Virus record (IMG/VR): IMGVR_UViG_3300010885_084005
Span: 1 to 26,189 of that record
Source of the DNA: a virus
Length of the DNA stretch: 26,189 bases
Direction: 5' to 3' (one strand)
Positions within the stretch are counted from its first letter, which is position 1. Each line of letters opens with the position of its first letter. The position numbers were made by a program, and so were the translations under genes. Shown one piece after another: positions 11,567 through 16,907 of the stretch. The notes below the pieces were generated by a model. The model had not been told where the DNA came from. It was given only the letters and a program-made list of their open reading frames with translations, and did not search any database.

Positions 11567-13132
11567 TTATTTTAGGGTAGTGTACTCGCCATCGATGAAA
11601 TGGATATGCTGTGCCTTACTATCATTATGTATTATCACATGAGACTGTAACCACCCGCTAGCGCCAATATTATATCCTATTCTAAGATGAGTCGATGTAC
11701 CTACGGCCAGTGCTCCATCTTTTCTTCCAGGTGCATGATAGTGGCCGACCACTATTTTAGTGTTTAATTTTCTAAATTGTAACAGAGATCCGCGACTTCC
11801 GCCTGAACCAATATCTCCATGTTGACCAAGTTCCCATCCATTAACTATAAAACTATCGCTTCTGCCTAGCGTTTTGAAATGTGGATATTTTTTGGTAATC
11901 ACATATGGTATTATTCCATTTGGTGCTTCCTTATTTAAGATAGCCGCTGCAAATTGCATATACTCTAGAGAGTTTTTTGGCGTGACTGTTTTTCTCCAGT
12001 CGGTGTCCTTCAACCACCTGTCTATAAAATCGTCGTGATTACTGCGTACTATAACTACGTTATGTTCTTCAAATTCAGTAAGACCATCTAATAGTGCATC
12101 TATTTCTTTCTTTAAAGAATTTGTGCCATTCATTTCCTTTTCATATTGAATGAATGGATCCTTTATTTCATGGTGATTAATCGATGTTCCATCAAATACA
12201 TCATGTAAAATTACGTGTTCTGGCTTGAGCTTTTTCATGAGCTCAAAAGTTGTAGTGACTACCTTTGCGTCGTGTTTTCCATAGTGAATATCTCCCCAAA
12301 TAATAGCCGCAATACTATCTAATTGAGTGATTTTACTCTCGGTGTCTCCATACTCTACTCTAAAGAAGAGATCACTAAAGTTACCATCATCGGTTGCAGT
12401 AACGTGTCTAACAAAAAATATTTCTTCGTCCTTTATTTCAACTATCACAAAACCTAAAGTATGGTGAAATTCTCCCTTTTTGCCAGCCTTAGAATCAGTG
12501 TAATTATTTATAGTACATGCACCAGTGGTCAGCATCATCTTTGGCTTGTTTCCTTCTAGCACCGGAATCATCTCTAATTGAACCTTCGGTGAACCAAACA
12601 CACACGAGTTAACTCCACTCATACCCTGCAGGCCAGTCATTGGATTGACTGCAGTTGGCTGAATCTTTACATCAGACATGATCGAGAGATATCTGTGTAC
12701 ATTATGACGATTTGCATCTAAGTATTTTTCTATTCTCTCTGCCCAAGTATCATATGCACTGTCTGTGAATATTGAAGTAGGATTTTTATATCTACCGGCA
12801 ATTACATGAATATCTGCATCTAAAAATTCAGCATATTTTTCAATATTTGCGATAAACTGTTCGTGTACGGGAGTATCGTTTTGCGCCCAAGTAATAATAA
12901 AACGTTTTTTGTTTCTATTAAGCTCCCTAGATTTTGCAGTGATCAATTGAGGTGAGTCCTCAAGTTGTTTTGTAGTATATCCAAGTTTTGCAATCCAGTT
13001 ACAGATAGTTCTCTCAGATTTGTCGAATTTATCAGATAGCTTACGTATACGTTGATCCCAAGAAAGATCTTTATTAAAATAAACGTTTGCAATAAATTCT
13101 ATGTGCTCATTCTCCAGTTCGGTGAACTTCAT
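11567..13132 (-). CDS. HTH-fused calcineurin-like metallophosphoesterase
   Basis: A 521-aa protein with two parts. Residues about 20-55 read as a helix-turn-helix (WDQRIRKLSDKFDKSERTIC then NWIAKLG). From about 270 to 480 is a complete metallophosphoesterase core: GDIHYG (D281, H283), HDVFDG (D311), RSNHDD (N365, H366), GQHGD (H438) and GHYHAPG (H464, H466). Such enzymes cleave phosphodiesters or phosphomonoesters with two metals. The closest thing I know with an HTH-like start and this core is the A1-type protein of T5-like phages, linked with host DNA degradation, but I cannot confirm homology. It is followed by a small ORF and then the tail block, and preceded by the ligase fusion gene. 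Confidence 0.8.
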   Translation of the reverse strand: MKFTELENEHIEFIANVYFNKDLSWDQRIRKLSDKFDKSERTICNWIAKLGYTTKQLEDSPQLITAKSRELNRNKKRFIITWAQNDTPVHEQFIANIEKYAEFLDADIHVIAGRYKNPTSIFTDSAYDTWAERIEKYLDANRHNVHRYLSIMSDVKIQPTAVNPMTGLQGMSGVNSCVFGSPKVQLEMIPVLEGNKPKMMLTTGACTINNYTDSKAGKKGEFHHTLGFVIVEIKDEEIFFVRHVTATDDGNFSDLFFRVEYGDTESKITQLDSIAAIIWGDIHYGKHDAKVVTTTFELMKKLKPEHVILHDVFDGTSINHHEIKDPFIQYEKEMNGTNSLKKEIDALLDGLTEFEEHNVVIVRSNHDDFIDRWLKDTDWRKTVTPKNSLEYMQFAAAILNKEAPNGIIPYVITKKYPHFKTLGRSDSFIVNGWELGQHGDIGSGGSRGSLLQFRKLNTKIVVGHYHAPGRKDGALAVGTSTHLRIGYNIGASGWLQSHVIIHNDSKAQHIHFIDGEYTTLK

Positions 13133-13180: not shown

Positions 13181-15112
13181 TTAGACGTCGCCTTCGTTAG
13201 CATCTTGCTCTTTTAGCTTCGGGTCGACGATTTCGGCAATAATTTGTTTTTCAAAGAGTTGTCTAAAATCGGCTGACTTAGTTGCACTCTCATTGACTTT
13301 ATTTTCAAGTTCCTTTTGTAAATTAAAAAAGTCAGATGCAATTGAATTAGGAACTAGTTTTTTAAATTCGCTAAAGTTAGAAGTCTTAATTGCATTAAGC
13401 ACATCGTCAGACTTGACGAATACTGGCAATTGTACTAATTTGAATTCTCCATCTAATCGAAGAGGAATGTTCTTCTTCTTTATATAATCCATTTGTAGAA
13501 GATAGTCTTTGCTTCTTTTCTCAGATGTTCCCCATAGTGTAGGTTTATATTCTGGTGTTAAGCTGTCGATTACTTCTTCCAAGTGGTTTGAAGAAATGAT
13601 TTTAATTCCTTCTATTAATTCAGGATATTCTCTAGCTACTTTTTCAAGAATTAATTTAGTTTGTTTAAGAGAAAAAGGAGAAAACTTAGTCTTGTTATCT
13701 GTCTTAATTGCTATCAAGATAGATTTATTTCCATTTTTGTCTTTTAGCTTTTGGGCAGCGATAATATGTCCCATATTTAAGGGTTGGAAATTTCCAATCA
13801 AAAGATTTACTTCGATTGGTTCCACTTTGTTTTTAACTCGTTCTGCTGCTTCTTTTTCGTTTAATAGGTGTTCTTCATTTGCCGCACCAATAAATTCGCT
13901 AAAACTTGGAAATAAACTTTCATAGATTTCATCTCCCATTATCACGTTTTTGATTTTGGTCACGATAATATTTAATTGAGTTAATAGGTCTGAAGTAAAA
14001 AATCCAGACGACGATCTTTTTCTAGTGCGACGAAAGAAGTTCAACAGTATCTTATAGATTTCTGAATATGTTGAACCTGATTTAATAATTCTTTCTACTT
14101 CTGGATCCTTAATTAGGGTAGCGTCAAGTTCAAATTCAGGGCGCTTTAGGTATTCCGGCACTTCTAACATCAGTCCTTCATATTTACCCTCATATTCCTT
14201 GACAAAATCTTTAAATATTGAATTGATTAGCTGAACATATCTTTCTTCAAAACTTCCATCTCCAGAAATTTTTCTCAGTTCATCAAGACTATACATCTCA
14301 AAGTGATTCATTAGATCGATCACAATAAGCCAAATATAATCTCGTGATTTATTTTCTGATTGATTAGACTGATTCGTACTTGTATGTTGGAAAATAGGAT
14401 CAACTAATTTTGCAAGAAAAACTTTTTCTTCTGGATTTTCTTCGGTTTCATCATAAAATCTAAACACGATGGTCTCAATACTTCCATCTAAGTTCTTCTT
14501 TAAGAATGAAGCATCCTTTTCTACATCTAATATGGAGATGATGTACTTAGTAAATGAGGTGGTCTTAAATTTCTTAAAAAGATCTTCGTTTGACGAATAC
14601 ACAAATTCAAGGATTGCCGATTTTTGCTCGTCAGTTAAGTGACCTTCGAATATAATCGGTGAACGCTCAACTCCTAAATAGTCTGCCCATTTATCAAGTT
14701 GTTCTTTATTTTGAACAGTTGATATTACCTTTCCTTCATCTTCCAAGCGATGAATATATGATAGCACTAAACTATTTTTTGGAAGATAATCGTATTTGCT
14801 GCTCAGCGAATCGCCGTTTGTAAAATACTCAAAACCGAAATAAAAATTCGCCGGTATTCTCTGTCTTTTTTCAAGAGACATTGATTCAAAATGAGAAATC
14901 GCTGAATTGTAATATTTCATCAATACTCGATCTACATAATTGATTTCTCCAGATTTTTTAAAGTATCTAAAAGTATCATCCTTGCTTTTCTTTATGCCAA
15001 AGAAGGTTCCATCCACTTTTTCATTGATGATGATATAGTGGTTTAGGAGACTTTTTAAAAATTCTTCTCCCTTCTTTTCATATACTTCTTTTAAGTGATT
15101 GATCCCTGCCAT
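13181..15112 (-). CDS. Ligase-like adenylyltransferase fused to cytidylyltransferase-fold domain
   Basis: A 643-aa, apparently bifunctional protein. The N-terminal domain (about 1-245) has polynucleotide-ligase-type motifs: EKVDG with nucleophile K32 (motif I, residues 31-35), YFGFEYF (91-97, motif III), ETIVFRF (213-219, motif IV) and AKLVDP (234-239, motif V). A helical middle part follows (260-400). The C-terminal domain (about 433-595) has LIGNFQPLNMGH (438-449, the GxFxPxxxGH signature of NMNAT/cytidylyltransferases with Asn for the first His), WGTSEKR (527-533) and an ISxTxxR-like VKSDDVLNAIKTSNFSEFKK (566-585) whose final Arg is replaced. The linker has FPSFSEFIGAANEE (401-414), like the capsid-targeting peptides in this phage. 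Functions are inferred; a role in RNA repair or NAD metabolism is plausible. Confidence 0.75.
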   Translation of the reverse strand: MAGINHLKEVYEKKGEEFLKSLLNHYIIINEKVDGTFFGIKKSKDDTFRYFKKSGEINYVDRVLMKYYNSAISHFESMSLEKRQRIPANFYFGFEYFTNGDSLSSKYDYLPKNSLVLSYIHRLEDEGKVISTVQNKEQLDKWADYLGVERSPIIFEGHLTDEQKSAILEFVYSSNEDLFKKFKTTSFTKYIISILDVEKDASFLKKNLDGSIETIVFRFYDETEENPEEKVFLAKLVDPIFQHTSTNQSNQSENKSRDYIWLIVIDLMNHFEMYSLDELRKISGDGSFEERYVQLINSIFKDFVKEYEGKYEGLMLEVPEYLKRPEFELDATLIKDPEVERIIKSGSTYSEIYKILLNFFRRTRKRSSSGFFTSDLLTQLNIIVTKIKNVIMGDEIYESLFPSFSEFIGAANEEHLLNEKEAAERVKNKVEPIEVNLLIGNFQPLNMGHIIAAQKLKDKNGNKSILIAIKTDNKTKFSPFSLKQTKLILEKVAREYPELIEGIKIISSNHLEEVIDSLTPEYKPTLWGTSEKRSKDYLLQMDYIKKKNIPLRLDGEFKLVQLPVFVKSDDVLNAIKTSNFSEFKKLVPNSIASDFFNLQKELENKVNESATKSADFRQLFEKQIIAEIVDPKLKEQDANEGDV

Positions 15113-15118
15113 AGGTGG

Positions 15119-15691
15119 TTATGTGGTTTGCTCATCGGTAGGCTTTTCAGTTTTTGCTGAAGGCTCTTCGCTGGCTAACTGTTGTTCTTGTTTAATTGGT
15201 TCCGGTTCTTTGTTCATAGCTTTACGGATACTCATTGCATCCATACTAATTGAAATGCTACGCACATTATCTGAATCTTCAGCGTTTTCAGTAAAGTAGT
15301 TGATGATCTTTTTCAAGTTCATGTTCATTTTTTCTTCACCGAATCCTCCTGCTTGTGAAATCTTTTTCTTTAGGTTAGTAGTTGCTTTCCAGCTACCTGC
15401 ATAGCTAATTGACCAGCAGTAAAAACAAACGTCTTCACCTTTGCTAGTGTAATAGTGTTGCATGTCTTTGATTTTTTGGATTGCTCCATTTGCATCGCGA
15501 TATGTTGTTGTTCGACCTAATGTGTCAGAAGGAACTCCAAATCGCACTTCATCTGATAGAAGTTCCATTAACTCGGAGATTCTAGAAACGATCTGATCTG
15601 CAGTATATCCTTTAAGCGGTCTTGACAAGTCAGCAGCTACTTCTTCTGCTTCCGTAAGGAATTGCGAAAAGGTTTTTAATGGATTATACAT
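15119..15691 (-). CDS. Probable capsid-internal protein with targeting peptide
   Basis: A 190-aa protein that opens MYNPLKTFSQFLTEAEEVAA. The segment KTFSQFLTE-A is strikingly like the T4 internal-protein targeting peptide (MKTYQEFIAE-A), cut by the gp21 protease after the Glu. The rest is helical, with a Cys pair (CFYC) and a disordered Glu/Pro/Lys-rich end. A late-type motif lies 18 nt upstream. The stop is six bases before the start of the ligase-fusion gene, so both are transcribed together. I infer co-packaging into the head; function after injection is unknown. Confidence 0.65.
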   Translation of the reverse strand: MYNPLKTFSQFLTEAEEVAADLSRPLKGYTADQIVSRISELMELLSDEVRFGVPSDTLGRTTTYRDANGAIQKIKDMQHYYTSKGEDVCFYCWSISYAGSWKATTNLKKKISQAGGFGEEKMNMNLKKIINYFTENAEDSDNVRSISISMDAMSIRKAMNKEPEPIKQEQQLASEEPSAKTEKPTDEQTT

Positions 15692-15738: not shown

Positions 15739-16332
15739 TCATCTAGTTGCTAATGAATTTAATATTTCACAAAAGTCAGAGACGCTAGTTGTATCAAAGT
15801 TATTTGTAAATGTCATAAAGTGATTGCTTTTCTTTGAATCAATGATTTCGCTTCTAAAATCTTTAAAAATATCTTCAAACAGTTTCTTCTCTATTGTATA
15901 GTTTTCAAAGTTTCCAAAATAGTCCTTTTCTCTCTTCTCAGGGTCAGTTTCTTGATTTCGAGTCAAGTATAAGACTGTACACTCCTGATAAAGTTCACCG
16001 TTTAGAATCTTACTAAATTCTGACAGCAATCTGGCTTTTGGCATTCTTTTTCTGTATATCGACCACACATATGCTGAAAAAATAGATCGATCAAAAATCA
16101 TGATCTTGTCTTTAAGCAGAGTTCGATTTAATTCTAAGATGGTGAGAACGTTTGCTATGCTAAAATAGTGCACGCCTGGACCAGCTTCATGATCTCTAAA
16201 ACCCAACTCTTCAATGTATTTTGCAAATTGAAACTTATAGTAGATGATATCTGGGTTCTTGTTTTGAGCAAAAAATGAATTAATTAAGTGAGTTTTTCCA
16301 ACGTGGCGCGGACCTTCAATAAAGATAATCAT
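15739..16332 (-). CDS. P-loop nucleoside or nucleic acid kinase
   Basis: A 197-aa NTP-binding kinase. The Walker A motif is GPRHVGKT (residues 7-14), and IFDRSIFSAYVW (79-90) supplies the Asp-Arg pair (D81, R82) seen in deoxynucleoside and thymidylate kinases, where the Arg binds phosphate. A lid-like segment LYLTRNQETDPEKREKD follows. The likely reaction is transfer of the gamma-phosphate of ATP to a nucleoside, nucleotide, or polynucleotide 5'-OH. Its start overlaps the stop of the HAD gene in an ATGA, so the two are coupled. A kinase beside a HAD phosphatase echoes T4 Pnk (kinase plus 3'-phosphatase), but the DR-S motif is more like the nucleoside kinases; the substrate is open. Confidence 0.7.
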   Translation of the reverse strand: MIIFIEGPRHVGKTHLINSFFAQNKNPDIIYYKFQFAKYIEELGFRDHEAGPGVHYFSIANVLTILELNRTLLKDKIMIFDRSIFSAYVWSIYRKRMPKARLLSEFSKILNGELYQECTVLYLTRNQETDPEKREKDYFGNFENYTIEKKLFEDIFKDFRSEIIDSKKSNHFMTFTNNFDTTSVSDFCEILNSLATR

Positions 16333-16907
16333 ATTAGTTTAATTCGTTTTTCTTCAGTTAGAAGTATGTTTTCGATGCGATACGTCTTGGATTTGTCTAC
16401 AATATAGATCTTGATCTCAATTTCATTTTTTCCTTCTTTCCACACTCTTTCTGTATTTAACCTAGCGAAGAATGTTTGATACGCGAATATCTGTTGGATC
16501 GAGTCCTCATAGATTTCAATCGATACTACTGAAGGCAAGGATTTTACTAATTCTTCAGCAATATCAATTTTCCTTTTAGTTCTACCCAAAAAGAACATTT
16601 TATCCAACTTGACGCCACGGTCATTTAAGATCGATGTCACTTTCTCAGAAAGACTTTGGACTCTGTGCGTGATCAATACTGAGTATACAGTACTATCTTC
16701 CGAGCCATTTTTCCAAGCATCGTATACTGGGGAGATAAGTTGAATATTATGAGTATCTTCGCATAGTGATTTTGGATGGTCGTAGAACTCATATGGTTGG
16801 TTAAACTGCAACTCCTTGGATTCTACTTGTTTTTTACTAGTATATCCTGGAGCTCTAACGATCGTTTCGTCAAAATCGAATATCTGTAAAGTTTTTATTA
16901 TGCTCAT
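16329..16907 (-). CDS. HAD-superfamily phosphatase
   Basis: A 192-aa protein with HAD motifs: FDFDETIV (D11 nucleophile and D13), LITHR (T80) as motif II, a Lys in GRTKRK (111-113), and IEIYEDS (E134, D135) as motif IV. An acidic pair preceded by a Tyr, and the TxR (THR) motif II, resemble the HAD domain of the 'Swiss Army Knife' RNA-repair proteins and of polynucleotide phosphatases. It ends in a basic segment. Its TGA overlaps the kinase ATG (ATGA at 16329-16332), so a functional pair is likely. Possible roles are 3'-phosphate removal from nucleic acid or dephosphorylation of a nucleotide; context favours the former but does not prove it. Confidence 0.7.
   Translation of the reverse strand: MSIIKTLQIFDFDETIVRAPGYTSKKQVESKELQFNQPYEFYDHPKSLCEDTHNIQLISPVYDAWKNGSEDSTVYSVLITHRVQSLSEKVTSILNDRGVKLDKMFFLGRTKRKIDIAEELVKSLPSVVSIEIYEDSIQQIFAYQTFFARLNTERVWKEGKNEIEIKIYIVDKSKTYRIENILLTEEKRIKLI

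Follow-up and report, generated by a model that had tools for sequence, protein, structure and literature searches.

What would a phage gain from a single chain that joins a ligase-like nucleotidyltransferase to a domain of NMNAT fold, and where in the infection cycle would such a protein act? The question is raised by an open reading frame of an uncultured T4-related phage in the stretch analyzed here (26,189 nucleotides, hereafter the window), a 26-kb sequence that constitutes the entire virus record. An earlier note on this DNA had read the product as a ligase-like adenylyltransferase fused to a cytidylyltransferase-fold domain and had proposed profile searches and structure prediction as checks, both of which agree with that reading. 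In the window protein alone, Pfam RNA_ligase matches residues 26-218 (E 3e-4) and CTP_transf_like matches residues 438-549 (E 1e-3), each just under the curated cut-off, and the two models match 20/26 (best E 1.3e-5) and 26/26 (best E 4.2e-8) aligned relatives, respectively. In Foldseek comparisons of an AlphaFold model based on an alignment of 103 sequences (mean pLDDT 80), the first half resembles T4 RNA ligase 2 (2hvq, E 2.4e-7) and the fungal ligase Trl1, and the second half of the same chain resembles archaeal NMNAT (1m8j, E 2.3e-5) and PPAT. A profile search of the PDB returned essentially NMNAT/PPAT matches only, and phmmer of the PDB gave no match. As modelled, the N-terminal half shares the fold of T4 RNA ligase 2 and Trl1 but differs from them in its very weak sequence likeness, the absence of one motif V lysine, and an extra helical region (residues 257-392), whereas the C-terminal half has the fold and the GxFQPxxxGH motif of archaeal NMNAT (NadM). 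Judged on these predicted models, the two-domain architecture is secure, and it is conserved among relatives (Table 1).

Table 1. Features of the fusion gene and its neighbors in the window (arrows mark proposed protease cuts)
Feature	Residues	Position	Strand	Remarks
Fusion ORF	643 aa	13181..15112	(-)	Ligase-like nucleotidyltransferase, disordered linker, NMNAT-fold domain
Rnl2/Trl1-like covalent nucleotidyltransferase domain	1-392	13937..15112	(-)	Pfam RNA_ligase; Foldseek to 2hvq, Trl1
Motif I, EKVDG (K32)	31-35	15008..15022	(-)	Weakly aligned with T4 Rnl2 REKIHG
Motif V, FLAKLVDP	232-239	14396..14419	(-)	K235 kept in 47/47 of the window's clade
Linker, ESLFPSFSEFIGAANEEHLLNEKEAAER	398-425	13838..13921	(-)	SFxEF + LNE; proposed capsid-targeting and prohead-protease region
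NMNAT/PPAT-fold domain	430-602	13307..13825	(-)	GNFQPLNMGH; ISxTxxR lost
Conserved upstream neighbor (cluster 10)		15119..15691	(-)	N-terminus FSQFLTE↓AEE, similar to T4 gp23 FGSFLTE↓AE; predicted head protein
P-loop kinase, thymidylate-kinase-like		15739..16332	(-)
HAD phosphatase		16329..16907	(-)	Pfam HAD_SAK_1 (RNA-repair associated), E 1.6e-6, above cut-off
Calcineurin-like phosphoesterase, annotated as DNA transfer protein (phrog_1745)		11567..13132	(-)	E 1.4e-151; conserved downstream

Relatives are common in uncultured phages and nearly absent from cultured ones. Successive scans of IMG/VR yielded 32, then 238 and 82 candidates; the best 80 of the 238 and the best 80 of the 82 were used, and these sets overlap. 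Among annotated phage records, the ligase half was matched only in uncultured huge-phage genomes, one of which (462 kb) carries the fused form, and a scan of genome contigs found no relatives. At five loci, both halves are encoded by separate, nearby ORFs.

The ligase half of the window protein contains the motif I lysine proposed previously (K32, within INEKVDG) and a motif IV, IETIVFRF, at residues about 212-219. A colinear alignment to T4 Rnl2, of low significance (P 0.09), pairs K32 with K35, K53 with R55, and E95 with E99; K32 is provisionally assigned to the nucleotide pocket by motif alignment rather than by model coordinates. Of the 47 proteins in the window's clade, 42 retain K32; K52, R218, and K235 are each present in 47/47; and the position of K53 is occupied by K or R in all 47. 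The Rnl2 pattern has two motif V lysines, of which only K235 is present here, position 233 being Leu in 47/47. A second, marine clade (52 proteins) keeps K32, yet its KxDG is usually KxQA or KxAA. We infer that this half most likely joins nucleic-acid ends, and of the two functions suggested in the earlier note, a nucleic-acid-end modifying enzyme is the better one.

The second domain is degenerate in the window's clade, as had been supposed, although one of the two arguments given for this does not hold. The window protein has Asn at the first position of the HxGH motif (GNFQPLNMGH), which had been taken as loss of a His; however, that position is T in 85, H in 15, and N in 8 relatives, and because Thr, the normal TxGH form, prevails, the Asn is weak evidence and the lost His was rejected as an argument for an altered domain. 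The second His is kept in 46/47 proteins of the clade, the remaining one having a gap. The other argument stands, since no member of the clade has the Arg of ISxTxxR, and that of GRFQP is missing too (among the clade residues listed). Both ATP-binding arginines of NMNAT are therefore missing, and the NMNAT half of the window protein has probably lost catalysis and is probably no working NAD synthase, as far as its motifs indicate. Conversely, the marine clade retains complete NMNAT motifs (GRFQP/TxGH and ISATxVR). The loss varies by lineage, affecting the NMNAT Arg in the window's clade and the ligase lysine in others, so that one of the two active sites has often been lost.

Between the domains lies a linker predicted to be disordered (low pLDDT), whose signature the earlier note did not remark on; 25 aligned proteins share F401, P402, S403, F404, F407, and E419 without exception. 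Its motifs were counted in 36 representatives sharing <70% identity, with expected counts from shuffles. Of these, 33/36 have F..[FYW] and then [LIVMF]xE (4.3 expected), and 27/36 have [LIV]xE[AG] (3.5 expected); hydrophobic-x-Glu by itself rises only slightly above its shuffled count (36/36 versus 28.9), and it is therefore the stricter forms that carry the argument for packaging. All marine-clade linkers (52/52) contain [LIVM]xE↓[AG] with a variable P2, lying 13 residues before the NMNAT fold in 51 and 16 in one. The window's own sites, IYE↓S and LNE↓K, have no A/G after the cut. Comparable sites, FGSFLTE↓A and YQEFIAE↓A, are carried by T4 gp23, IPII, and IPIII. T4 core proteins carry their targeting sequence at the N-terminus; gp21 trims these tagged proteins, which are then injected (PMC9958956, PMC7411985). 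Head packaging, protease trimming, and injection, which would liken the window protein to T4 IPI-III and Alt, are only proposed for it, and its targeting-like signature is internal instead of N-terminal. Among the larger related contigs, a gp21-type protease is present in 20/24 and gp23 in 15/17, and N-terminal tag-like motifs are about 5x over expectation among neighboring gene clusters (54.4 versus 10.7 of 238).

Gene order is shared within the window's clade: HAD phosphatase, P-loop kinase, the small protein beginning FSQFLTE↓AEE, the fusion, and the calcineurin-like phosphoesterase. HAD phosphatases of the HAD_SAK_1 kind occur in jumbo-phage repair systems (PMC7824862). The phosphatase and kinase were also considered as a "split Pnkp", which was rejected; thymidylate-kinase and AAA models are the only ones that match the kinase, and it resembles a nucleotide kinase more than a polynucleotide kinase. 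In marine relatives, the upstream gene encodes a second ligase-motif protein with EKTDGQN (L041:4733-5998 and 52 related ORFs, cluster 4); most of these proteins start with a tag-like sequence and usually have [LIVM]xE↓GG, and the members tested received no Pfam or PHROG name. Upstream of some split-gene relatives is a Pol-beta-like GS...DxD protein (L152:3755-4732, L164:4144-5070) with no convincing Pfam match.

The earlier note knew of no characterized enzyme with this combination; the protein is indeed uncharacterized, but it is not unique, since a split counterpart exists in cyanophages and a fused one in S-PM2. The NMNAT half is homologous to the T4-GC190 "cytitidyltransferase" (hhalign 93-96%; tblastn down to E 6e-9), which adjoins T4-GC71 (Pfam DUF6267, PF19782; e.g., L204:4845-5756) in 65/65 loci where both were scored. 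T4-GC71 has motifs like those of covalent nucleotidyltransferases (KWDGAPA, EGFV, KLVDR), which offer a candidate function for DUF6267; KWDGAPA occurs in 72/72 scored proteins, a count that is partly by construction because they were picked by the pattern KxDGxPA. The pair resembles the window protein in placing a ligase-motif protein beside an NMNAT-fold protein with a T4-like N-terminal site, but it consists of two genes, and hhalign and hmmsearch detected no significant relation between the ligase half and DUF6267, for which sequence homology is not claimed. A tag-like N-terminal signature (FSAFLxE↓A) is present in 75/76 complete GC190 N-termini, such as MKKFSAFLNE↓AE in S-SM1. GC190 was detected in the S-SM1 virion and is listed as not detected for S-PM2 (PMC3037559), and NMNAT-like proteins were reported in virions of four other cyanophages, with one report warning of possible co-purification (PMC10665884). 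In the cultured S-PM2, S-PM2d138 (591 aa, LN828717) also has a ligase-motif half followed by an NMNAT half in one chain; however, its first half is DUF6267 and it is without the targeting linker. As sequence comparison gives no significant relation between the two ligase-like families, this fusion seems to have arisen separately. It is a single ORF in LN828717 (L288:2986-4761) versus two CDS in the older NC_006820 (103025-104804), probably a frameshift or sequencing difference. Ligase-like and NMNAT-like proteins are tied together in hundreds of T4-like phages.

We consider it about an even bet (roughly 50%) that the fusion is packaged into the head as a precursor, is probably cleaved into two parts, and delivers a nucleic-acid end-repair enzyme. 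The gene would encode the precursor form of a head protein in a T4-like phage, with a lysine-dependent nucleotidyltransferase of RNA ligase type as its N-terminal half, an NMNAT fold as its C-terminal half, and a linker that holds a hydrophobic-x-Glu site and a segment resembling capsid-targeting sequences. It would probably enter the prohead core and probably be cut there into two proteins by a gp21-type protease, and the products would be injected alongside the phage DNA. Once inside the newly infected cell, the ligase half would act on broken nucleic-acid ends by joining or adenylylating them, possibly together with the adjacent HAD phosphatase, while the NMNAT half would serve in binding or assembly in the window's clade and, in the marine clade, may have kept the ability to produce NAD or something related. 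A repair role is in keeping with the HAD_SAK_1 neighbor and with the second ligase-motif gene next to the fusion in marine relatives. Head packaging and cleavage of the fusion protein, though unproven, have several lines in their support. A fuller version is more tentative: the prohead protease would release both a nucleic-acid ligase and an enzyme of NMNAT type, together forming a preloaded kit for repair and counter-defence, and the internal targeting sequence would serve both halves. The head-packaging reading predicts repair enzymes carried inside phage heads, a claim addressable in the cultured cyanophages S-PM2 and S-SM1 without the window's phage in culture.

The strongest competitor, which we nevertheless regard as rather improbable, is a non-packaged repair fusion whose domains cooperate in the cytoplasm during infection, the linker motif being a docking element and not a protease site. 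Linkage of the two protein types does recur, both in the adjacent cyanophage genes and in the S-PM2 fusion that lacks the signature, and fusion genes are often near replication and repair genes, e.g., UvsW and primase. What speaks for packaging instead is the locked position of [LIVM]xE↓[AG] despite its variable P2 throughout the marine proteins, and the presence of the homologous GC190 in virions (PMC3037559).

Two decayed enzymes might also have become a structural or nucleotide-binding virion protein with little or no catalysis, which seems unlikely. In 19/129 proteins, another residue (N, Q, D, R, or V) stands in place of K32, with about seven changes on a FastTree tree, so that not every lineage depends on ligation; the NMNAT Arg is lost across the window's clade; and phages of 634-735 kb have the ligase-like half only, in which D or N replaces the K. 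Nonetheless, the near-complete retention of K32 and the invariance of K52, R218, and K235 in the window's clade, as well as the intact NMNAT motifs of the marine clade, argue against decay. Least probable by far is an NAD-supply enzyme whose NMNAT half makes NAD for the ligase half or against host NAD depletion, even though phages are known to synthesize NAD (PMC7824862, PMC9503650) and the marine motifs would suit it. NAD supply to the ligase, the other function suggested in the earlier note, is not borne out for the window protein, since both ATP-binding arginines are missing clade-wide and NadV was found in only 6/27 related records (contigs partial), where it is not adjacent to the fusion; furthermore, no NAD-dependent LigA is among the PDB matches listed by Foldseek for the ligase half.

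Some fusions have extra C-terminal regions of ~250-500 aa (L041:5998-9348, L025:6001-8601, L128:6001-8946), which in the first of these is preceded by TFNDFINESLITE. In addition, the window contains a NeuB-family (sialic acid synthase) gene at 1640-2536, near a glycosyltransferase gene at 141-608.
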